Source of the DNA: a virus
Strand: one strand, 5' to 3'
DNA length: 52,566 nt
IMG/VR virus record: IMGVR_UViG_3300044627_003899
Coordinates: 1-52,566 of that record
A program made the position numbers and the translations under genes. A model generated the notes under the pieces. That model saw nothing but the letters and a program-made list of their open reading frames with translations, made no database searches and had not been told where the DNA came from. Positions within the stretch are counted from its first letter, which is position 1. Each line of letters starts with the position of its first letter. Below are positions 3,975 to 36,698 of the stretch, piece by piece.

Positions 3975-4709
3975 ATGATTCCACTATTCAAGTCCCACTT
4001 TTCTATCGGGAAAAGCATCTTGACTCTGGCAGAGCCAGAAAAGCAAAAGAAAGATGGGCCAGACAGTATCCTCTCTTTAGCCTTGGATAACGGGCTAAAG
4101 GAAATTTATCTTGTAGAGGACTCTCTTACAGGATTTTTGACCGCATTTAAGATTTGCCAAAAGTACGATCTGTCACTAAGGTTTGGGCTTAGAATCAGTA
4201 TCTGCAATGATTACCAGTCGATTGAATCTTCAAAAAGTAAGCTAGTCCTATTTGCTTTGAACGATCAAGGCTTCAAGGATATCAATAAAATCTATACTTT
4301 TGCTCATACAAAAAATGATGGCTTGATCTCTAATGACGATCTAGCATCCAGATTAAATCCAAACATCTTCGTTTGCGTGCCATTTTACGATTCTTATGTT
4401 TGGAATAATTATCATTATTTTAATAATTGCACTCCATTTTTTCTGGATAACGTCGATCACGCTTACTTGACAGAAAATAATAAGCTTCCTTTTGACCAGA
4501 TTATTTCGAAGATAATCGAATCAAAGGGAAAAGAAATCATGCCTGTCAAGTCAATCTATTATAAAAATAGAGAAGATTACGAGGCGTGGATTACTTATAA
4601 GATAGCTTGCAGTGGAACAATGGGAAGAAGCCGCACTTTATCGGCGCCAGATCTAAGTGACTGTGGTAGTAAAGAATTCTGTTTTCAATCTTGGAAGGAG
4701 GCTTCATGA
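3975..4709 (+). CDS. PHP-like N-terminal part of DNA polymerase III alpha, separate protein
   Basis: A 244 aa protein matching the N-terminal PHP region of DnaE that is normally fused to the polymerase. Recognisable stretches are SHFSIGKSI near the N-terminus, IYLVEDSLTGFLTAFKIC followed by LRFGLRI (DnaE has the TDHGN...GIKPIIG region here), SKLVLFALNDQGFKDINKI (DnaE's LLAKNEEGYKNL region) and a final NREDYEAWITYKI. Metal-binding histidines of active PHP domains are mostly missing (the HxH near the start is KSH, and the later TDH position is VEDS), so phosphoesterase activity is unlikely and a structural role is inferred. The gene has its own promoter and is followed by the exonuclease and the polymerase body. 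It may assemble non-covalently with them. Confidence 0.75.
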   Translation: MIPLFKSHFSIGKSILTLAEPEKQKKDGPDSILSLALDNGLKEIYLVEDSLTGFLTAFKICQKYDLSLRFGLRISICNDYQSIESSKSKLVLFALNDQGFKDINKIYTFAHTKNDGLISNDDLASRLNPNIFVCVPFYDSYVWNNYHYFNNCTPFFLDNVDHAYLTENNKLPFDQIISKIIESKGKEIMPVKSIYYKNREDYEAWITYKIACSGTMGRSRTLSAPDLSDCGSKEFCFQSWKEAS

Positions 4710-5332
4710 ATAGTCTTTTAAGGCAAAATCTAAATCAGAAGTTCGTCGTTTTTGACACAGAGACAGAAGGACTGTCTTTGACAGACTCTCGTCCTTGGCA
4801 ACTTTCTTGGATCGTCTGCAAAGGCGAAGAGATTCTAGAGCAGCACGATGAATTCGTTCTATATCCAGACTTGAACGTTTCTGCGGATGCAGCCAGAATC
4901 ACTGGTTTTAATTACGACACTTACCGCAGTAAGGCAAAGCCTCCTATCGAAGTCTGGAAAATGTTTGCTAATTATCTGTACAATGAAAACTACATTCTCG
5001 TTGGACAGAACATTTTGAATTACGATATTTATGTTTTGAATACCATGATGAGAACAATTGGCATCCAGAACAACTGGAGCTTTTTGCCGAGAATGATTGA
5101 CACTAGGGCGCTTGCCACCGCAATGTTCAAGGATATCAAGTTATCTGGAGATAGGCTTTCTTGGCAAATGAAGCTAATGCATTTTAGAGAAAAAGGTCTA
5201 AAGACCAATCAAGCTTTTCTTCTAAAGCATTTTAGTATTGATCACGATCCATCGAAACTGCACAATGCGTTATACGACATCACGATGAATTATAAGATTT
5301 TCCGCAAACTTATCATGGGGGTAGAGCTATGA
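4706..5332 (+). CDS. dnaQ: DnaQ-like 3'-5' exonuclease (DEDDh)
   Basis: A proofreading-type exonuclease of about 208 aa. Exo I is FDTETEGL (Asp17 and Glu19), Exo II is VGQNILNYDIYVL, and Exo III is HNALYDITMNYKIF, giving the H-x4-D spacing of DEDDh enzymes. The start at 4706 is chosen because a strong AAGGAGG site precedes it; an in-frame TTG at 4691 lies upstream and would place this ribosome site inside the gene. It lies between the PHP-like protein and the polymerase body, overlapping the polymerase start by 4 bases, so it is almost certainly the epsilon-like proofreading subunit of this phage polymerase. In DnaE-type replicases the exonuclease contacts the PHP domain, which fits the gene order. 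Confidence 0.88.
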   Translation: MNSLLRQNLNQKFVVFDTETEGLSLTDSRPWQLSWIVCKGEEILEQHDEFVLYPDLNVSADAARITGFNYDTYRSKAKPPIEVWKMFANYLYNENYILVGQNILNYDIYVLNTMMRTIGIQNNWSFLPRMIDTRALATAMFKDIKLSGDRLSWQMKLMHFREKGLKTNQAFLLKHFSIDHDPSKLHNALYDITMNYKIFRKLIMGVEL

Positions 5333-7896
5333 AAACATTCCAAACTTCGTTCGAAAAATATAAGAATCCTATACCTCCCGGTGTTCGTTTGCCAGAAATT
5401 AAGATCGAGCAGAGATATTATGCATCTCTCGGTATTGATCCAACCGTTTCAAATTTCGAGTTTCTACGTCAGCTTTGTCTAAGAGCTGTCAAAACAAAAG
5501 GTATAGATAAACTACAAAATAAAAAAGATTATTATGAAAGAGCTAAATATGAACTGGCAATCTTTGAAGAGCTTGGTTTCGTCGATTATGTTCTGCTTAA
5601 TTGGGACATTCTTAATTATGCTCATGAGCACGATATTCCTACTGGTTACGGTCGTGGGTCTGCGGCTGGCTCTTTGGTTCTTTTTCTGATTGGCGTCACT
5701 AATGTAGATCCAATCAAGAACGGACTATTCTTTGAACGGTTCGTGTCGAAAAGCCGCGCCAAGAAGATCATCGTTGATGGCATTACCTATCTTGATGGCT
5801 CTCTTATGCCTGATGTTGATAACGATATCGAATTCTCTAAGAGAGCAGAGGTAATCAACTACATCAAAGAAAAGTATAGCGGTAAGACCTGTAAGATTCT
5901 TACCATGAACACTTTAACTGGTAAACTCTGCATTAAAGAATGCGGCAAGATCGTTGCTGAAATGTCAGAGGACGAGGTAAATGCTGTAAGCGATGTGATT
6001 CCAAAGCAGTTTGGAAAGGTATTTGCATTAAAGGACGCCTACGATGAGAGCGAGCAGTTCAAAGCTTTCTGCGATAAGAATCCTAAAGTCTTTAAAATTG
6101 CAAAAAAAATCGAGGCTCTGAATAAGAATACCGGCGTTCACCCGTCTGGCATATCGATCTCTTATTACGATAATGAAGATATTATGCCACTCCAAAAGAC
6201 TGGAGATGGCGAAATCGTGTCTGCCTACGACATGAATAACGTTTCAGAAATTACAGTTAAGTTTGATATCCTTGGCCTCAGAACTCTTACTGTAGTTTAT
6301 GATACTTGCCAGCGCCTTGGTCTCGACTTCAAGAATCTTGATTTTGATAACTCATCAACTTATAAATTCTTGCAGGACTTGTCGAATCCAAAAGGACTCT
6401 TCCAAATTGAAGCAAACACAAACTTTCATGTTTGCAAAAAGGTAAAGCCGCGAAACATGCTTGAGCTTGCTTGTGTACTTTCTCTGGCAAGACCCGGAGC
6501 ATTAGACTTCTTGGAGCAGTACGCGACATACGTTAGGACTGGAGAATTCCAATCAGTTCACCCTTTCTTTGACGACATTCTCAGCATAACTGGAGGTATT
6601 CCAATCTTCCAAGAGCAGTTAATGAAGATGATCGTTAAGGTTGGATTCACTCTTGATGAAGCAGAAACGGTTCGTCGTATTGTAGGAAAAAAGAAGGTTA
6701 GCGAAATGCCTGCTTGGCAGCAGAAGATCAGAGAAAAGATTGCAGCTAATAATCTTGATCCTGCGATTGCTGATGTTCTTTGGAAGGTTGCCGAAGATAG
6801 CGCGAATTATTCATTCAATGCGTCTCACGCTTTTAGCTATGCAACCCTTAGTGCGCTGACGACTTATCTTAAGTTCAATCATCCAAAAGAGTTCTTCCTC
6901 GCTTTGCTTAGGTCATCTAGGCATGAGCCAAATCCACACGAAGAGATTGAGTCGATCTCGCAAGAACTCAGCTTCTTCGATATCCGTCTTTTGCCCCCAG
7001 ATCTCTCTAAGTCAAAGGCGGATTTTGAAATTCAAGGTAATGATATTCGCTTTGGATTAAATGCTATCAAGGGCGTTTCAGACAAAGTGCTTTCTCATTT
7101 GCTTGAGTTTAGAGATATTGAGTTCTCAAATAAAATCGACTGCTTCGATGCCGCCAAAGAAGCTGGCGTAAATATCGGCGTCGTCTCATCCTTGATTCAA
7201 GCTGGAACTCTTTCGAGCTTTGGCGATAAGAGATGCAGGCTTGTGCTTGAGGCTCAGACCTACAATATTCTTACTGATAGAGAAAAAAGAAACGTCAAAC
7301 TTTTGGCCCCAAAGCATAATTTTGACGTACTAAATACTATCGCTGAAACAGTTAAAAACAAAACCGTTGGGGACGATGGTAAGATTTTTATGAAAGACTC
7401 CAGATACGAGACTTTCAAAAACAAATATCAGGCGTACAAGAAGATCTATGATATGAATAAAAAATACGAGAAGTTTGCCAACTGGTTTTTTGAGCGACAG
7501 CTTCTTGGATATAGCTATACACACAAGCTTAAAGAAGTATTTTCTGAAGATGATTCTGATCGCCTGTCTACAACATACGAAGCTTCTCAAGTAGAAGTGC
7601 GCCAAAACGTCAAAATGGTAGGGGTGGTCAAAGAAGCGCGTAAGAAAGTTAGCAGAGCCGGTCGCCCTTATTTATTCGTAAAAATCTCTGACGAATATGG
7701 AGAAATGGTTTGCAGGCTCACAGATGGCGGAAGAGATGACAAGTTCACAATGTATTATGAAGGCGGCGGCAAAACCCCAAAGGAAGATGACATTGTTGTC
7801 ATTTATGGTTCTAAGGCCGAGGATTCTATTTTCCTAAATGGCTTGACAGTCTTGACCGAAAAGATTTATACAAAGATGTCACAAGTAGAATCTTAA
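5329..7896 (+). CDS. dnaE: DNA polymerase III alpha (DnaE-type), polymerase body without PHP domain
   Basis: The replicative C-family DNA polymerase, 855 aa, shorter than bacterial DnaE (about 1,160) because the PHP region is encoded separately. Seen in order: a palm/thumb start with GYGRGSAAGSLVLFL (about 106-120), the catalytic palm motif MPDVDNDIEF (Asp162, Asp164, with Asp166 nearby), HPSGISI (about 271), the third catalytic aspartate in VKFDILGL (Asp313), the finger region with FNASHAFSYATLSALTTYL, a helix-hairpin-helix-like region around DIRFGLNAIKGVSDKVL, and a C-terminal OB fold (VKMVGVVKEARKK, YLFVKISDEYGEMVCRLT). An extra loop of about 15 residues precedes PDVDND. No tau-binding tail is evident. 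The start overlaps the exonuclease stop (ATGA type). Confidence 0.93.
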   Translation: MKTFQTSFEKYKNPIPPGVRLPEIKIEQRYYASLGIDPTVSNFEFLRQLCLRAVKTKGIDKLQNKKDYYERAKYELAIFEELGFVDYVLLNWDILNYAHEHDIPTGYGRGSAAGSLVLFLIGVTNVDPIKNGLFFERFVSKSRAKKIIVDGITYLDGSLMPDVDNDIEFSKRAEVINYIKEKYSGKTCKILTMNTLTGKLCIKECGKIVAEMSEDEVNAVSDVIPKQFGKVFALKDAYDESEQFKAFCDKNPKVFKIAKKIEALNKNTGVHPSGISISYYDNEDIMPLQKTGDGEIVSAYDMNNVSEITVKFDILGLRTLTVVYDTCQRLGLDFKNLDFDNSSTYKFLQDLSNPKGLFQIEANTNFHVCKKVKPRNMLELACVLSLARPGALDFLEQYATYVRTGEFQSVHPFFDDILSITGGIPIFQEQLMKMIVKVGFTLDEAETVRRIVGKKKVSEMPAWQQKIREKIAANNLDPAIADVLWKVAEDSANYSFNASHAFSYATLSALTTYLKFNHPKEFFLALLRSSRHEPNPHEEIESISQELSFFDIRLLPPDLSKSKADFEIQGNDIRFGLNAIKGVSDKVLSHLLEFRDIEFSNKIDCFDAAKEAGVNIGVVSSLIQAGTLSSFGDKRCRLVLEAQTYNILTDREKRNVKLLAPKHNFDVLNTIAETVKNKTVGDDGKIFMKDSRYETFKNKYQAYKKIYDMNKKYEKFANWFFERQLLGYSYTHKLKEVFSEDDSDRLSTTYEASQVEVRQNVKMVGVVKEARKKVSRAGRPYLFVKISDEYGEMVCRLTDGGRDDKFTMYYEGGGKTPKEDDIVVIYGSKAEDSIFLNGLTVLTEKIYTKMSQVES

Positions 7897-7903
7897 GTGT
7901 AAA

Positions 7904-10315
7904 ATGAATAAAGTGCAAGAGATTAACTTTACTCCTAGAGTTAAGAGAGCATTGGATGTAGCCAAGCAGAGATGCTTGGAAAACAACTGGCATGAAATTA
8001 CTGATGAATTTTTATTGCATGCCGTTCTCTTTTCGGAGTCGATGATAGTAAACCTTGCCTTTCAAAGCGTTAAGATAGAAATAAAAGACGTAGTTTTAGC
8101 CCTTTCTAAAACCTTACCTACTGGCAAAAAGAAAGTTAGCGAAAAGCAAGTGCAGTTTAGCGCCACTGCAAAAGCTATCGTTGACAACTCTTACAAGATT
8201 TCTCAAAGCTTTAAGCAAAATTATACTGGAGTTGAGCATTTATTTCTCTCAATTCTTAGACATTCCCAAGGCGTTGCTAAGTTTTTCAAAAAGCACGGCT
8301 TAGACATAGCCTACTTTGCCGATAAAGTAGAAAAAGAATGCAAGCATCTTTCTAATCCAGTAAAGAAGCCTATAGAATCTCAGTCTTCAAAGTCGCAAGA
8401 CGCCCTATCTGAGTTCTGTGAAGACTATAATGAAAAGGCTGCTGCTGGAGACTTTGAGCATATCTTCTTCAGAGAAAAAGAAGTAGAGCAGCTTTCTGAG
8501 ATCCTTTGCCGTAAACAAAAGAGAAATCCAATACTTATTGGGCATCCGGGCGTTGGTAAAAGTGCAGTTGTCGGCTTAATTGCTAAGAAAATTGTTTCTT
8601 GCCAATGCACAGAGTTCTTGCTTAACAAAAGGATCATAAGTATTAATCTTGGCAACCTCATCGCTGGAACAAAGCTTAGAGGCGAGTTTGAAGAGCGCTT
8701 GACAAAGGTAATGGAGCAAATAAAAAAGATTGGCAATGTCATTGTGTTTATTGATGAGGTTCACAACTTAATCGGCCTTGGAAATGACGCAGGGTCAATG
8801 GATGGCGCAAATATTCTAAAGTCCTATTTAACATGCGAGGACATGTCTTTTATTGGAGCTACCACAGAAAAAGAATACGAAAATTACTTTGCAAAAGACG
8901 CAGCGATGAATCGCCGCTTTGAGCCTGTATTCATCAAAGAGCCCAATAAGGAACAGACTCTTGATATTCTGAAAAGACTGAAGGAATTCTACGAGTCATT
9001 CCATATGATTAAGTACCCAGACAATGTTCTTGTGGACATTATTAATGTATGCGATAAGTATCTTACCAGCAAACACTTTCCAGACAAGGCTATTGATTTG
9101 ATGGATCAAGTTGGCGCTAAGGTCAAAATTAAAGCGTTTGCGCGCCCACAAGAGATCAAGAACATGGAGAAGCTGATTTTGGAGTTTGAGAAGATCGCGC
9201 CAGAGAACATAAAAGAAGAGCACCTCGACGATATTATTAACGACTATCAAAAGAAATATGATGCTTGGGCAGAAGTAATAAAGAATAAAAAAGAAAAGGC
9301 GAGAACCAAAGATGTTTACCAAGCACTATCCGATAAGATTGGCAAAGTCATTGATTCTGAATCAGAGAACTCTGGGATCAAAAATATATATGCGAATCTT
9401 AAAAAGCATGTCTTTGGTCAGGACGATGTAATTAAAAAGATCTCTGACTGCGTGCTGCGTAGCTCTTTCGGCTTGGCTAAGAACTCTCGTCCTCTTGGCA
9501 ACTTCATGTTTATTGGCCCAACGGGTTCTGGCAAAACCCACTTAGCTAAAACATTAGCTAAAGAAGCTTTTGGAGATGAGTCGAACTTGTGCATCATTGA
9601 TATGTCCGAGTTTATGGAGAGTCATTCTGTATCTAAGCTCATTGGTGCTCCTCCGGGTTATGTCGGACACAGCAGTCCAAGCATGTTTTTCACCCAATTG
9701 CAGAAGCATCCATCAACAGTGTTTCTTTTCGACGAAGTAGAAAAGGCGCATCCAGATGTAGTAAATATTCTTCTCCAAATTATGGATCGCGGCGAGCTTA
9801 CTGATTCATTGGGCAATAAATTAAACTTTAAAAACTCTATTATTATTATGACTGGCAACGTAGGTTTCCAGATCAACGACAATAAGAAGATGGGTTTCGG
9901 AGCCGTTTCAAATCCAAAGCCCACTAAAGATACCATCATGGACAGCCTAAAGAGATTTTTTAGGCCAGAATTCCTTGCCAGATTGAATGAAATCGTTATC
10001 TTTCAAGAACTATCTGGAGAGAGCTTAGTCAAGGTAGTTCAAGCAGAATTAGATTCTATCAAAACATCCCTTGCAAGCAGCGGCACCACAATCTCCTTCT
10101 CTTCAGAAATTATTGATTACGTGATTGATAAGACAAAGGACTCCAACTCTGGAGCAAGAAAGATAGTATTCTTTATAGAGAATGAATTAAAAACTAAAAT
10201 AGTTGATGTTTTGTCTACTGGTAAGTATAATCAAATCAAAGTCTGCATTAAAGACGGAGAAATAGAAGTAGATGGAAAAGCAAAAAAACTTCTTGCAACA
10301 TACTGTAAGCAATAA
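7904..10315 (+). CDS. ClpA/ClpC-type AAA+ unfoldase with ClpP-loop-like MGF
   Basis: An 803 aa double-ring AAA+ unfoldase. It has a Clp N-domain (about 1-150, with GVEHLFLSILRH), a first ATPase with Walker A GHPGVGKS (213-220) and Walker B VFIDEVHN, a short linker lacking the long ClpB coiled coil, and a second ATPase with GPTGSGKT (538-545), the pore loop GAPPGYVG, Walker B FLFDEVEKAHPDV, and FFRPEFLARLNEIV. After the second ATPase's IIIMTGNVG comes KKMGFG; MGF (663-665) sits where ClpA, ClpX and ClpC carry the (I/L/V)G(F/L) tripeptide that docks onto ClpP. ClpB lacks it. No phage ClpP is seen here, so it may recruit host ClpP. GTGTAA lies just before the ATG and no Shine-Dalgarno site is seen. 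The unfoldase class is secure; ClpP docking is inference. Confidence 0.9.
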   Translation: MNKVQEINFTPRVKRALDVAKQRCLENNWHEITDEFLLHAVLFSESMIVNLAFQSVKIEIKDVVLALSKTLPTGKKKVSEKQVQFSATAKAIVDNSYKISQSFKQNYTGVEHLFLSILRHSQGVAKFFKKHGLDIAYFADKVEKECKHLSNPVKKPIESQSSKSQDALSEFCEDYNEKAAAGDFEHIFFREKEVEQLSEILCRKQKRNPILIGHPGVGKSAVVGLIAKKIVSCQCTEFLLNKRIISINLGNLIAGTKLRGEFEERLTKVMEQIKKIGNVIVFIDEVHNLIGLGNDAGSMDGANILKSYLTCEDMSFIGATTEKEYENYFAKDAAMNRRFEPVFIKEPNKEQTLDILKRLKEFYESFHMIKYPDNVLVDIINVCDKYLTSKHFPDKAIDLMDQVGAKVKIKAFARPQEIKNMEKLILEFEKIAPENIKEEHLDDIINDYQKKYDAWAEVIKNKKEKARTKDVYQALSDKIGKVIDSESENSGIKNIYANLKKHVFGQDDVIKKISDCVLRSSFGLAKNSRPLGNFMFIGPTGSGKTHLAKTLAKEAFGDESNLCIIDMSEFMESHSVSKLIGAPPGYVGHSSPSMFFTQLQKHPSTVFLFDEVEKAHPDVVNILLQIMDRGELTDSLGNKLNFKNSIIIMTGNVGFQINDNKKMGFGAVSNPKPTKDTIMDSLKRFFRPEFLARLNEIVIFQELSGESLVKVVQAELDSIKTSLASSGTTISFSSEIIDYVIDKTKDSNSGARKIVFFIENELKTKIVDVLSTGKYNQIKVCIKDGEIEVDGKAKKLLATYCKQ

Positions 10316-11264
10316 AAAGCTTCTTCCCATAGAAGAAGAATTTTTATCTGAGATCTCCAAAAGAATTGAATCAAAGCTTCAGTTTAAGATCTCTAATGTA
10401 TTTAAGCATCACTCCAGTCCGCTTTATGACTGTTTTTTTATTGCTGCCGATAATCGACCATTTTTTCTAAAGGTCAATCTTTCTCCAGACGCCCCAAATT
10501 CTTGGGATTTGCTAGTTCAAAATAATTTTGATTTTCATCCAATAATTTTAGACTCTTCGTCTCTAGAGGATGAATTTAAATTTATATTTTTTGAGCTTCC
10601 CAAAGGTACGTTTGCTAATGATATATCGAACTATCTTTTGAGTCCAAAGCTCAATTTAGCAAACTTATTCGCTAGGGACTATAATAAAATTCATTCTTTT
10701 AAATTCTCGGCTAACGATGAAACGTTATCTTTGCATGAATCTTTTTTGCCAAGAGATGCAATGAGAATTTACAGAAAATACCCAATAGTAGATTTGTTCT
10801 CTACTTTAAAAATAGTTTTTGAGGATATTTATAAACCCAATCCATCTCATTGTAATTTTTGCCATTTTGATCTTAATCTAGAAAATATTATATATACTGG
10901 ATCTGAATTTAAATTTATTAATTTTGAATACTCATCTAACGCTAATAAATATTTAGATATATGGCTCACTAAAACATTACTCAATTGCTCTGATAGTACT
11001 TTTTATAAATTTCTGCAAAACTACGATAAAGAAGATGTTGAAAAAATACTTCAATATGAAGACGCCTCAAATCATTTTATTTTTTCGTATTTTAATTCAA
11101 AAATAATTGCAGAATATATGACCTTTGGTTTACGTGATCCAGTAAAATTAAAGGATTGGATAAACCAGTCTAGTTTTTTTTATTCAAAAATTGCAAATAA
11201 ACTTTATATCGAAAAAGATATTGACAAATTGATAAGAGACTTTTATTATCTGTGGCAACAATAA
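10272..11264 (+). CDS. APH/choline-kinase-fold protein, possibly degenerate
   Basis: A 330 aa protein with the fold pattern of aminoglycoside phosphotransferases and choline kinases. The catalytic-loop-like motif is CHFDLNLENIIY (H-x-D-x4-N), followed by FKFINFEYSSNA, which matches the IDFEYA metal-binding region of choline kinases but with Asn in place of the usual Asp. The N-terminal lobe is weakly recognisable (FFLKVN may hold the ATP lysine). The missing aspartate argues for altered or lost catalysis. It overlaps the Clp gene by 44 bases. Its DNA is strongly AT-rich relative to the replication genes, like the methyltransferase at 2349, suggesting acquisition. Substrate unknown; small alcohols or sugars are typical for the family. 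Confidence 0.65.
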   Translation: MEKQKNFLQHTVSNKKLLPIEEEFLSEISKRIESKLQFKISNVFKHHSSPLYDCFFIAADNRPFFLKVNLSPDAPNSWDLLVQNNFDFHPIILDSSSLEDEFKFIFFELPKGTFANDISNYLLSPKLNLANLFARDYNKIHSFKFSANDETLSLHESFLPRDAMRIYRKYPIVDLFSTLKIVFEDIYKPNPSHCNFCHFDLNLENIIYTGSEFKFINFEYSSNANKYLDIWLTKTLLNCSDSTFYKFLQNYDKEDVEKILQYEDASNHFIFSYFNSKIIAEYMTFGLRDPVKLKDWINQSSFFYSKIANKLYIEKDIDKLIRDFYYLWQQ

Positions 11265-11818: not shown

Positions 11819-12255
11819 ATAAACCAAATAGATCGAATACAGGTACAGCCGTATCTTTTAATACGGTAGACAAGAAGGAAGAAAAGGGTATAGATCTCTA
11901 TGTCAGCTTTATCAAGCAAGCTGGCTGGAACGATCAGACAAAGAAAGGTTCTTTTAGCGAGAACGCAAAGAACCCAGAGAAGACGGCTTCTCTAAAATTT
12001 AACGAAGCTGAGGCAGCTTCTATTATCCGAGCAGTTCGTCTTGGATCGAAGTTTTCGACTGTTCACGCTTTTCAAGGCTCCACTACATCTATTATGTTTG
12101 GGCCTTATCAAAAGAAGAATGGCGACGCTGCGCTTTCTTTTTCTATTAAGAAAGGTGAGCAATCATTTCTTATTGGTTTTGAACTTGGAGAAGGTGAGCT
12201 TATTGCCCAGTACCTAGAGAACTATCTCCGTAAGTCGTTCGACCTTTCTGAATGA
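11803..12255 (+). CDS. possible single-stranded nucleic-acid-binding protein (PC4/Whirly-like pattern)
   Basis: A 150 aa protein. It begins MRLNFYKPNRSNTGTAVSF and continues with alternating strands that include GIDLYVSFIKQAGW, GSFSEN, ASLKFNEAEAASIIRAV, STVHAFQGSTTSIMFGPY, ALSFSIKKG and SFLIGFELGEGE, then ends in an amphipathic helix, LIAQYLENYLRKSF. The strand-strand-strand-helix order and phage context recall PC4/Whirly-like single-stranded-DNA-binding proteins; this is pattern recognition, not proof. No Shine-Dalgarno sequence precedes the ATG, which lies inside a stable hairpin, a layout that would suit autoregulation by an RNA-binding product. It overlaps the next gene by 4 bases. Confidence 0.6.
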   Translation: MRLNFYKPNRSNTGTAVSFNTVDKKEEKGIDLYVSFIKQAGWNDQTKKGSFSENAKNPEKTASLKFNEAEAASIIRAVRLGSKFSTVHAFQGSTTSIMFGPYQKKNGDAALSFSIKKGEQSFLIGFELGEGELIAQYLENYLRKSFDLSE

Positions 12256-14153
12256 AAAAGACTGTAGTTTTCCATAGCAATCACAGCCGAATGTTTACAG
12301 GATTCGGCAAGAATGCTAAAAATGTTCTCAGGTATCTTTATAAAACTGGCAAATACAATATTATTGAATTCGCCAACTCAAAGACTAAGAACGCCGAAGA
12401 TCTAAAGACGCTTCCTTGGCAAGCGTTTGGCACTCTTCCAGAGCAAGGAAAACTACAGGCTCTTGCCTCTGATCAAACAAAGATCAGAATGGCTAGTTAT
12501 GGGGTAATTGAAATTGATGAGCTTATCAAAGAGGCAAAGCCAGATTTCTATATTGGCACAGAGGACATCTGGGCTCTATCTCCTTTGGTCGATAAGAAAT
12601 GGTGGAATGAGAATTGCATGATATGGACAACCCTTGATTCTCTTCCTATCTATCCTGATGCGATCAACATCATCTCAAAAGTAAAACATTATTACGCTTG
12701 GAGTTCTTTCGTAGAAAAAGAAATCAAGCGACTTGGATACCCAGAAGGTTCAATAAAGACATTAAGAGGGGCAACAGAGACCTCCTCATTCTTTAGACTC
12801 AAGGACGAAGAGAAGAAGCTGTTGAGGAAAGAGTTTGGGCTTTCTGATGAATTCATCGTTGGGTTTGTTTTTAGAAATCAACTCAGAAAAAGCGTCCCTA
12901 ATCTAATGCAGGGCTTTAAGCTTTTCAAGGACAAGAATCCAAAACTTAAGCCTAAACTGCTTCTGCATACACATTGGTCAGAAGGTTGGGATATTCAAAG
13001 GTTGATCAAAGACAATGGGCTAGACAACTCCGACATTCTTACTACTTATTTTTGCAAAAAGTGCAAACAGTATGAAATCAAATCGTTTTCGGGTCAAAAG
13101 ATTGCTTGTAGATTTTGTGACGGCAAAGATACTGTAGAGACAACGAATATTCATAATGGCGTAAGCGAAGACCAGCTTAATGAAATTTATAATTTAATGG
13201 ATGTTTACTGCCATCCATTCACAAGTGGTGGTCAAGAAATTCCAGTAACAGAAGCAAAACTTACTGAGTTAATCACATTAGTCACGAACTATTCTTGCGG
13301 AGAAGATTTTTCCACTGAAGATAGCGGAGGAATGCCGCTTTCTTGGAAACCGTATTTTGAACCTGGCACAAACTTTATCAAAGCGACTACTCTTCCAGAG
13401 TCTATCGCAGATAAGCTTGAGAGAGTTGCCTATACTCCACTTTCTAAGCGAAGTGAAATGGGCAAAAAAGCCAGACAGTTCGTTTTGGATAATCTGTCTG
13501 CCGAGGTAATTGGAAAACAAATAGAAAAGATTATTGATAACGCCCCGAAAATTCAATGGAGTTACTCCTCTTCTTTTGAGCTTAGAAACCCAAACCATCA
13601 GCCAATTGAATCCACAAATGATACTGATTGGGTAGTTGATCTTTACAAAAACATTCTAAAGATGAATGTTGATTCAGAGGATAGTGGGGTAAAGGGCTGG
13701 GTTAACCAAATTAAAAATGGCGGCTCAAGAGAGTCGGTTTTGAATTATTTTAGGCAAACTGCCATAAAGGAAAATCAAGAGAATACCCGTGTTGAGCTTT
13801 CTGATCTGCTAGACAAAGACGACAAGGGAAGAAGAATACTTTTTGCAATTCCCCAAAGCGCGGGCGACGTTTTTCTTTGCACGTCGCTACTTCCATCCAT
13901 AAAGAAAACTTATCCAAATTATAATATATACTTTGCGACAAAACCTGAGTTTTTCGAGATTCTGGATTGCAATCCATATATTCATAAGAAAATTGTTTTT
14001 AGCCCATTCATGGAAAACCTATTAACTATGGAAGGCCATGCTGGTGGAGAAGGATATTTTGATATCGCATTTCTTCCTCACGTTGGCACTCAAAAGATAT
14101 TTGACTACCAGCATAACGGCAAAGATATAATACAATTCGATATAAAGGCATAA
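12252..14153 (+). CDS. GT4-type glycosyltransferase fused to the N-terminal half of a GT9 enzyme
   Basis: A 633 aa glycosyltransferase. Residues 1 to about 440 form a GT-B enzyme of the GT4 kind: N-terminal Rossmann-like part (VVFHSNHSRMFTGFGKNAKNV, acceptor side), FIVGFVFRN at the second-domain start, and the donor-site region around HPFTSGGQEIPVTEAK. A zinc ribbon with Cys268, Cys271, Cys286 and Cys289 is inserted in the second domain. From about residue 520 a new domain begins (GRRILFAIPQSAGDVFLC) that matches the first Rossmann domain of GT9 heptosyltransferases. That enzyme's second domain is encoded by the next gene, one base downstream in another frame. The sugar and target are unknown; phage DNA, the virion or host surface glycans are possible. 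Confidence 0.75.
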   Translation: MKKTVVFHSNHSRMFTGFGKNAKNVLRYLYKTGKYNIIEFANSKTKNAEDLKTLPWQAFGTLPEQGKLQALASDQTKIRMASYGVIEIDELIKEAKPDFYIGTEDIWALSPLVDKKWWNENCMIWTTLDSLPIYPDAINIISKVKHYYAWSSFVEKEIKRLGYPEGSIKTLRGATETSSFFRLKDEEKKLLRKEFGLSDEFIVGFVFRNQLRKSVPNLMQGFKLFKDKNPKLKPKLLLHTHWSEGWDIQRLIKDNGLDNSDILTTYFCKKCKQYEIKSFSGQKIACRFCDGKDTVETTNIHNGVSEDQLNEIYNLMDVYCHPFTSGGQEIPVTEAKLTELITLVTNYSCGEDFSTEDSGGMPLSWKPYFEPGTNFIKATTLPESIADKLERVAYTPLSKRSEMGKKARQFVLDNLSAEVIGKQIEKIIDNAPKIQWSYSSSFELRNPNHQPIESTNDTDWVVDLYKNILKMNVDSEDSGVKGWVNQIKNGGSRESVLNYFRQTAIKENQENTRVELSDLLDKDDKGRRILFAIPQSAGDVFLCTSLLPSIKKTYPNYNIYFATKPEFFEILDCNPYIHKKIVFSPFMENLLTMEGHAGGEGYFDIAFLPHVGTQKIFDYQHNGKDIIQFDIKA

Positions 14154-14154
14154 C

Positions 14155-15360
14155 ATGCATATTTTAGATAGATACGCTTTATCTTGTGGAGTTAAAATCG
14201 ATAAGCCGTTTATAAATTTACATTACTACCCAATAACTCTAGAAAAATATATAGTATTTCAAACTAGCGGCAAAGGCAATTCTCGTCAGTACGATTACTG
14301 GCACAAAGTATTCTCCTTTATTAAGGAATATGCGCCTGATTATAAGATTGTCCATATTGGTGTGCCTTCTGATCAATCTGTTCATGGGATTGATATTGAT
14401 TTGCGCGGTAAAACTTCCATAAACCATTTAGCATATATAATCAAAAACTCTTCTATTTACGTTGGAGTTGACAGTCTATCAGTTCATTTAGCGAGCGCTA
14501 ATAACAAAAAGATAGTTGCTCTTTATTCTTACTGTTACGCGCAAAACTGTAGTCCAGTTTGGGGAGATCGCAAAGACCATACTTTGATAGAGGTTGATTG
14601 GGTAAAATACGGCAAGCCCTCATTTTCATTAAACGAGGAAAATAAAAAAATTAATAAAATTAATCCAGAGATTATCGCTAAATCTGTGCTGGATCAATTA
14701 GAAGTTCCTAATGATTTGGATAAAATCCAGACCATACACATTGGAGCGTCGTTTCATACTCCTGTTATTGAAATAATTCCAGACGATGGTCCGATCCCAG
14801 TTTTGATCAAAGAAAAGGTCTGCAATGTTAGGCTAGATTATCTTTTCAATGAAAAAAAGCTTCTCCAATTATCGTCAGTTTCGTTTTTGAATATTATTTC
14901 AAACAAGCCAGTTGACTTAGGGCTTCTAAATACAATCAAATCAAAAGTTTCTGGTATGACGCTTATCGTCGATGCGTCCTTTGATATTGATTATTTAAAA
15001 ACAGTAAAAAATTTCGGCTTCAAATTAACCTTGACTGCTCCAAATGACAACGGCTGGGGCGCGTTGGCAGAAAAGTTTTTTGATTTTGGGCTAGAAAAAG
15101 AAGAGGTCGTAACAAAGAATAGTGTGAAAGATTCAGATAAAGTAAGCGATCAGTGGATTTTCTCTTCGGAAAAAATCATAATTTCGAATGGGAAAATCTT
15201 TTCCAGTAAAGCGAGCTGGAAAAACAATCAGCCAAAGCTTGACAAGTACTCAAAAGTCATCGACACTCCTGACTTCTGGGAAGAATCTGAACATTTTCAT
15301 ATTTTAAAAGATGAACGACCAAACTGGAACAGCGCAAAAAATTCCCTCTCTCCGCGATGA
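14155..15360 (+). CDS. C-terminal half of a GT9 glycosyltransferase with extra domain
   Basis: A 401 aa protein. The first about 185 residues match the second Rossmann domain of GT9 (ADP-heptose-type) transferases: HILDRYALSCGV at the hinge, VFQTSGKG (GT9 GS-type strand), YKIVHIGVPSD, DLRGKTSINHLAYIIKNSS and YVGVDSLSVHLASANNK, the characteristic nucleotide-sugar-binding G-x-D/S...H segment. The GT9 first domain is the tail of the preceding gene, ended by TAA one base before this ATG, so the enzyme is split at the interdomain hinge. Residues about 190-401 form a further domain I do not recognise. A single base insertion or deletion near 14150 would fuse the two frames, so a sequencing error must be excluded. 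Confidence 0.7.
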   Translation: MHILDRYALSCGVKIDKPFINLHYYPITLEKYIVFQTSGKGNSRQYDYWHKVFSFIKEYAPDYKIVHIGVPSDQSVHGIDIDLRGKTSINHLAYIIKNSSIYVGVDSLSVHLASANNKKIVALYSYCYAQNCSPVWGDRKDHTLIEVDWVKYGKPSFSLNEENKKINKINPEIIAKSVLDQLEVPNDLDKIQTIHIGASFHTPVIEIIPDDGPIPVLIKEKVCNVRLDYLFNEKKLLQLSSVSFLNIISNKPVDLGLLNTIKSKVSGMTLIVDASFDIDYLKTVKNFGFKLTLTAPNDNGWGALAEKFFDFGLEKEEVVTKNSVKDSDKVSDQWIFSSEKIIISNGKIFSSKASWKNNQPKLDKYSKVIDTPDFWEESEHFHILKDERPNWNSAKNSLSPR

Positions 15361-35864: not shown

Positions 35865-36030
35865 AGAAAAGCGTAAGGCATATTGGGGCTCCAAAGCTTT
35901 TGATACGTCTTGCCGAAATCATGGAAGCTGCTCTTGGTGCGAGGGCAATAGATTTTATTCAGAAAAAAAGCGCAAGGCTTCTGCCAAAGATCAGCTTGAT
36001 CGTTACTACGATTACTACGACGAACAATAA
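35833..36030 (+). CDS. small cysteine-containing phage protein
   Basis: A 65 aa protein beginning MSLEKAIKHNKEKRK. SCRNHGSCSWCEGNR gives a C-x4-C-x2-C arrangement, probably a metal site with the nearby histidine. Proteins with this start and CRNHGSCSWCEGNR-like motif are common small phage proteins of unknown function. It overlaps the GT9 gene by 32 bases and shares one base with the next start (TAATG). Confidence 0.75.
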   Translation: MSLEKAIKHNKEKRKAYWGSKAFDTSCRNHGSCSWCEGNRFYSEKKRKASAKDQLDRYYDYYDEQ

Positions 36031-36698
36031 TGCCTTACCTTAACGCAAATATTCCTGTTTTTACCGCTTATTTAAAAAGCGACTTTCTTTATAACGAAGA
36101 AAATAAGACCACAGATTATGTTCTGTGCGAGGTTCTTGGCATTACAAGCTTAACAAGACGATGCCTAACCTTTCAAATAATGACAGAGTATGGCTCTCGT
36201 CATGACAGAGTGCCCATTCACTATCTTGTAAATGATCCAGTCCACCAAAATTATCCCTTAGATTGGCTCCAGCTTTGGGACTGCTATTCTAATTCTCTAT
36301 CAGTCACAAGATACGAGTACCATAAAAATTCAGCAGTCAAGATACAGCTAAAGAATCGTGAATGGGTAAATGGCAAATATTTGTTTACCGTTGATTGGCA
36401 CGACAACCCAGATGCTCCATACGGCTACTCTGAAATGGCAGGAGGTCACAAGTGCGGGCATCTAATATGGGGACTGTCAACCAGCAACGGCGAACCTGTA
36501 AACCAACTGTTTTTCCAGCCAAATAATAGAATACTCTGGAAAGATGGCGGTGCATTTATTTCAAAGAAATTCGACAAGAGGCCAGACTGGAAAGTTTTTG
36601 ATAAAGAGTTTTCTTGTGAAGGCTCCAGCAAATGGCAAGCCGAAGATAATTGGGACTATTTCTACCAGTTCAATCATGAACAAGAATCTGATAAATAA
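36030..36698 (+). CDS. unknown 222 aa protein
   Basis: Starts in a TAATG overlap with the previous gene. Several conserved-looking segments occur (SRHDRVPIHYLVNDPVHQNY, HKCGHLIWGLSTSNGEPVNQ, FFQPNNRILWKDGGAF), rich in tryptophan, histidine and proline. A beta-rich enzyme or capsid-decoration role is possible but no family was recognised. Its end overlaps the signal peptidase gene by 23 bases. Confidence 0.7.
   Translation: MPYLNANIPVFTAYLKSDFLYNEENKTTDYVLCEVLGITSLTRRCLTFQIMTEYGSRHDRVPIHYLVNDPVHQNYPLDWLQLWDCYSNSLSVTRYEYHKNSAVKIQLKNREWVNGKYLFTVDWHDNPDAPYGYSEMAGGHKCGHLIWGLSTSNGEPVNQLFFQPNNRILWKDGGAFISKKFDKRPDWKVFDKEFSCEGSSKWQAEDNWDYFYQFNHEQESDK

Follow-up and report, generated by a model that had tools for sequence, protein, structure and literature searches.

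Among the Clp ATPases, ClpA docks onto ClpP through an IGL/F tripeptide that is missing from ClpB/Hsp104, and grafting this tripeptide onto ClpB/Hsp104 permits an interaction with ClpP (reviewed in PMC5540906). In Staphylococcus aureus ClpC, the residues F436, R443 and D444 form the head-to-head contacts of a repressed resting state, and the mutation of any of them, or the deletion of the M-domain, leads to a constitutive, adaptor-independent activity, the F436A variant being toxic (PMC5699869). Phages are known to tune the Clp proteases of their hosts by means of small adaptor-like proteins, and the role of the Clp genes of jumbo phages has so far been guesswork. Clp ATPases are annotated in the phages GAP32, K64-1, SCTP-2, Phosso and others, Atu_ph07 was reported to carry ClpX, ClpA, ClpB, ClpP and ClpS (PMC6102473), and the moraphages carry ClpA (PMC12619734). 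The idea, put forward in a preliminary description of the present locus, that phage Clp ATPases of this type are rarely described therefore goes too far: such ATPases are already present in PHROG 4871 and in the genomes of several jumbo phages, RaK2-like and others. In the open-licence literature searched, we found no study in which a Clp ATPase from a phage had been tested with ClpP.

The window analysed here is the whole of the 52,566-base virus record IMGVR_UViG_3300044627_003899 (positions 1 to 52,566). Its phage context is real, as shown by the presence of helicase, primase, polymerase, ribonucleotide reductase, lambda-like tail and rIIA/rIIB genes. No close isolated relative of this phage was found, the polymerase matches listed being all below 32% identity. 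The tail protein J resembles the J proteins of Burkholderia phages over about one fifth of its length, a mere hint at the host. The clp gene (7904..10315; all features given here are on the plus strand) is a full-length, open reading frame of 803 codons, whose 803-aa product is assigned as a ClpC-like double-ring AAA+ unfoldase from its PHROG 4871 match and from PDB sequence and fold matches. As previously noted from the sequence, the gene lies just after the polymerase genes: its ATG is located 7 bases past the stop codon of the gene for the catalytic part of DNA polymerase III alpha (5329..7896; PF07733, PF17657, PF14579), which is directly upstream of clp in all records checked that cover that stretch and belong to the same clade of uncultured phages. 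Downstream, the 3' end of clp overlaps by 44 bases the start of a gene encoding a 330-aa, weakly choline-kinase-like protein (10272..11264; PF01633, E 3.7e-5, below the Pfam cut-off). Five relatives (G004, G005, G008, G012 and G015) have polymerase, clp and choline-kinase-like protein in the same succession, which ties the unfoldase to the replication block, and this position suggests a role while the genome is being replicated or in the early takeover. The DNA polymerase III alpha itself appears split into a PHP-like protein (3975-4709), a DnaQ-type exonuclease (4691-5332) and the catalytic part without PHP (5329-7896), an order shared with G004, G005, G008 and G012. Further along the window are two glycosyltransferase-like genes (12252-15360; phrog_2170/Glycos_transf_1 and Glyco_transf_9) and a protein matching PHROG 3704 'ferredoxin' (36030-36698; E 1.3e-43).

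The feature that bears most directly on the function of this protein is the tripeptide MGF (residues 663-665; 9890..9898), located in a flexible loop. It occurs only once in the protein and follows the sensor-1 strand and its Asn, where it aligns exactly with the IGL of Escherichia coli ClpA and the VGF of Bacillus subtilis ClpC, whereas in E. coli ClpB the aligned position falls in a gap and the tripeptide is missing. The loop alignment thus confirms the ClpP-docking place proposed for MGF in the preliminary description. ClpP-partner unfoldases (ClpA, ClpC, ClpX and ClpE types) are recognised in sequence by a hydrophobic-G-(F/L) loop after sensor 1 in the ClpP-facing ring, and the conserved MGF provides such a loop. 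The set of relatives compared comprises 18 IMG/VR contigs at 67-92% identity, 44 further ones at 32-39%, and annotated jumbo phages. Unannotated 'phage' contigs of Listeria, Enterococcus and S. aureus, as well as an Acinetobacter contig with clpS-clpA, look like fragments of bacterial chromosomes and were excluded as phage evidence.

The site reads [IM]GF in all 12 distinct sequences of the clade. The Gly is kept without exception in the 54 distinct phage sequences in which the loop is covered, 47 of which have [ILM]G[FY]. Within the clade, the Gly is encoded by GGT, GGA or GGG and the Phe by TTC or TTT, so that only synonymous changes are seen at G and F, and the loop residues 657, 658, 668 and 669 vary freely. 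In addition, the AF2 model has a pLDDT below 50 at residues 659-668, where the docking loop is predicted to be flexible. Conservation, synonymous codons and a flexible loop form together the pattern expected of a docking loop under selection. A [ILVM]G[FLY] tripeptide would be found in about 3% of random 16-residue loops of the same composition, and at a fixed place in about 0.2%; a chance occurrence is ruled out by the latter value together with the conservation across divergent sequences. Judged from the sequences, the tripeptide is therefore maintained by selection and not by chance. A few remote relatives display degenerate tripeptides (IGG, IGV, QGM and TGV), so ClpP docking may be limited to part of the family. 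L013 and L014, Clp ATPases encoded by uncultured phages with very large genomes (735 and 642 kb), have QGM and TGV at the aligned columns.

From the position of the loop, its conservation in divergent phages, its flexibility in the model and the ClpP genes in the records of relatives, we strongly infer that the phage protein docks onto ClpP. The best explanation, to which we assign a probability of roughly 0.7, is that of a phage-borne ClpC-like unfoldase docking onto ClpP, most likely that of the host, and delivering substrates for degradation. The phage would thus probably feed chosen proteins into the host ClpP during infection. The proposal that the unfoldase docks on host ClpP, made earlier from the sequence of the window, is consequently well supported in its docking part; as the phage genome is incomplete, the host's ClpP is only the likely partner.

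Indeed, an unfoldase working with a phage-encoded ClpP from an unsequenced part of the genome, and forming with it a complete phage Clp protease, has to be considered, although we regard it as unlikely. Among the 50 IMG/VR records with a relative of the ATPase, 21 carry a ClpP gene, and the proportion rises to 9 of 11 in the records of at least 100 kb, so phage relatives of this ATPase are commonly found in genomes with ClpP. The two genes occur together in G018, G021, G023, G024, G026, G027, G029-G031, G033, G034, G036, G037, G039, G041-G044, G046, G049 and G051. The Ser-His-Asp triad is kept in the ten phage ClpP copies that were read, and a terminase is also present in seven of the records with ClpP, which shows that these are real phages. 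The co-occurrence suggests that several large phages encode a complete Clp protease of their own. A search for a terminase in four clade records (the window and three others) gave none, and therefore the sequenced parts fall short of the whole genome and an own ClpP may lie outside them. Nevertheless, no ClpP gene was found in the window, as the preliminary description had also observed, nor in the L002 and L003 records or the other clade records searched, which span roughly 80 kb of syntenic sequence (window, G005 and G008), and ClpP is also missing from two large records (198 and 200 kb) whose ATPases have the tripeptide. No ClpS adaptor was found in the clade records searched. The partner is thus most likely the ClpP of the host.

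In sequence and fold, the closest matches of the phage protein are to ClpC. It matches PHROG 4871 over its full length (E 2.8e-197, 658.6 bits; residues 9-795 on positions 8-760 of the 764 in the profile), ClpC proteins are its best sequence matches in the PDB (E 1.5e-153), and its best PDB folds are ClpC-ClpP entries, with a large whole-chain rmsd because the domains are placed differently. In the trees, the clade groups with its sister L034 on a long branch. Placing the clade and L034 with bacterial ClpC gave a borderline AU p of 0.053; the same placement with L034 split off, a less fair test than keeping L034 with the clade, gave 0.0004. Therefore, it is the architecture that can be called ClpC-like, the placement inside bacterial ClpC being borderline. 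A recent capture of a host ClpC is unsupported, as the nearest bacterial proteins found share only about 35% identity and the branch is long. Membership in ClpB is ruled out by the length of the M-domain (101 versus 174 aa) and by the presence of the tripeptide, and membership in ClpA by the presence of a middle-domain hairpin.

This hairpin (residues 416-460; 9149..9283) is of the short ClpC type and is formed in the AF2 model (mean pLDDT 80.8) by the helices 416-431 and 434-460. The M-domain of ClpB is a full, two-wing one of about 120 aa. The segment separating the D1 lid motif PDKAIDL from the D2 motif (V/I)xGQ measures 101 aa in the window protein, compared with 113 in ClpC and 174 in ClpB, and ClpA has no middle-domain insertion there. 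The absence of a ClpB middle coiled coil, proposed in the preliminary description, holds as regards a domain of ClpB size, but the short hairpin and its deleted tip had been overlooked. The protein thus has the N-domain and the single-wing middle hairpin of ClpC and lacks the repressive M-domain tip (F436, R443 and D444): the window protein and the six other listed members of the clade have gaps at the columns of ClpC E435, F436, E437, R443 and D444. By analogy with the S. aureus mutants, the phage protein would be de-repressed and possibly constitutively active without an adaptor. A bolder proposal, which we hold tentatively and at somewhat less than even odds, is that the lineage turned a ClpC-like motor constitutively active and adaptor-independent by deleting the repressive tip while keeping the ClpP hook, and that, on infection, this motor commandeers the host ClpP and redirects degradation without host adaptors.

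The structure of the middle domain also bears on whether the protein could be a protease-independent motor, similar to ClpB or ClpL, that remodels or disaggregates phage replication complexes and retains the tripeptide as a relic. This would fit the location of clp in the replication block, directly after DNA polymerase III alpha, and the loss of the tripeptide in some remote relatives. However, the tripeptide is the conserved part of the loop across divergent phages, with G and F changing only synonymously in the clade, the protein has no ClpB-type M-domain, and ClpB/Hsp104 lack the tripeptide. The disaggregase alternative raised in the preliminary description is weakened by these last two observations, and we consider such a motor quite improbable.

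The remaining domains are those of a complete double-ring ATPase. Pfam recovers AAA, AAA_2, AAA_lid_9, ClpB_D2-small and Clp_N, corresponding to two AAA+ modules, a D1 lid, a D2 small domain and an N-domain, in agreement with the two AAA+ modules and Clp N-domain seen at first reading. The N-domain (residues 9-150; 7928..8353) is supported by the Clp_N match at 97-145 (E 8e-8) and by confident helices at 11-150 in the AF2 model. As in class I (two-ring) Hsp100/Clp proteins, the two modules present Walker A, Walker B, sensor and arginine-finger motifs, all placed by alignment. D1 contains the Walker A GHPGVGKS (213-220; 8540..8563), the pore loop AGTKLRG (254-260; 8663..8683), the Walker B VIVFIDEVH (279-287; 8738..8764) and intact paired arginines (RRF). 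D2 contains the Walker A GPTGSGKT (538-545; 9515..9538), the pore loop APPGYVGH (582-589; 9647..9670) with an intact GYVG, the Walker B VFLFDEVEK (606-614; 9719..9745), an intact sensor-1 Asn652, the conserved R693 at the arginine-finger position (9980..9982; invariant in A2) and the sensor-2 GAR (750-752; 10151..10159). At the Tyr/Phe position of the D1 pore loop, every clade row covering the site has a Leu (KLRG), the remaining rows of the comparison all having Y or F, and the loss of this aromatic residue may alter the threading by the first ring. A decoy or dominant-negative protein, which would cap the host ClpP or co-assemble with host Clp ATPases and so block host proteolysis, could make use of unregulated docking to occupy ClpP and of a D1 pore loop without aromatic residue, but the intact Walker A and B pairs, sensors, arginine fingers and D2 pore Tyr argue for an active motor and make this very unlikely.

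In the unfoldase model that we favour, the ClpC-like protein would form a hexamer and thread substrate proteins through its two ATPase rings. The lower ring would dock by its MGF loops onto the ClpP tetradecamer, most likely that of the host, to which the substrates would be passed for degradation, and this activity would be independent of adaptors, being de-repressed through the loss of the M-domain tip. Replication initiators would be a natural guess as substrates, by analogy with lambda O and ClpXP, a case discussed in PMC6102473. With its ClpP hook under selection and without the part that represses ClpC, the clade lends itself to a specific and testable model in which the phage takes over proteolysis with a supplied motor and a borrowed protease. 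Moreover, a naturally de-repressed ClpC-like motor would serve as a tool for studies of Clp regulation.

Compared with the ClpB/Hsp104 disaggregases, the phage protein shares the two-ring AAA+ fold and matches the ClpB model below its cut-off, whereas the M-domain of ClpB is complete (174 aa between motifs, against 101 in the phage protein) and the tripeptide is absent from ClpB. With E. coli ClpA it shares the two rings and a docking loop, which is IGL in ClpA; in contrast, ClpA has no middle domain and the bacterial ClpA sequences form a separate branch. The resemblance is greatest to the ClpC of B. subtilis and S. aureus, in domain order, N-domain, D1 and D2, short M-domain and hydrophobic-G-F loop, although the identity is only about 35%, the F436/R443/D444 tip is absent from the phage protein, its D1 pore loop reads KLRG instead of KYRG, and it stands on its own long branch. 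Among phages, the 'ATP-dependent protease' family PHROG 4871 (GAP32, K64-1, Hallingskeid and other jumbo phages) and the ClpA of moraphages are likewise phage-encoded Clp ATPases, but the jumbo-phage members of PHROG 4871 examined are ClpA-like and without a middle domain, some of them with the degenerate tripeptides IGV, LGM or IGG. SPO1 Gp53 also represents a phage reprogramming of the host Clp protease, although this 25-kDa protein is adaptor-like, acts on host ClpC and is not an unfoldase (PMC6873191). What is new here is that a clade in which no ClpP is visible combines a ClpC-type architecture and a conserved ClpP hook with the deletion of the repressive tip.
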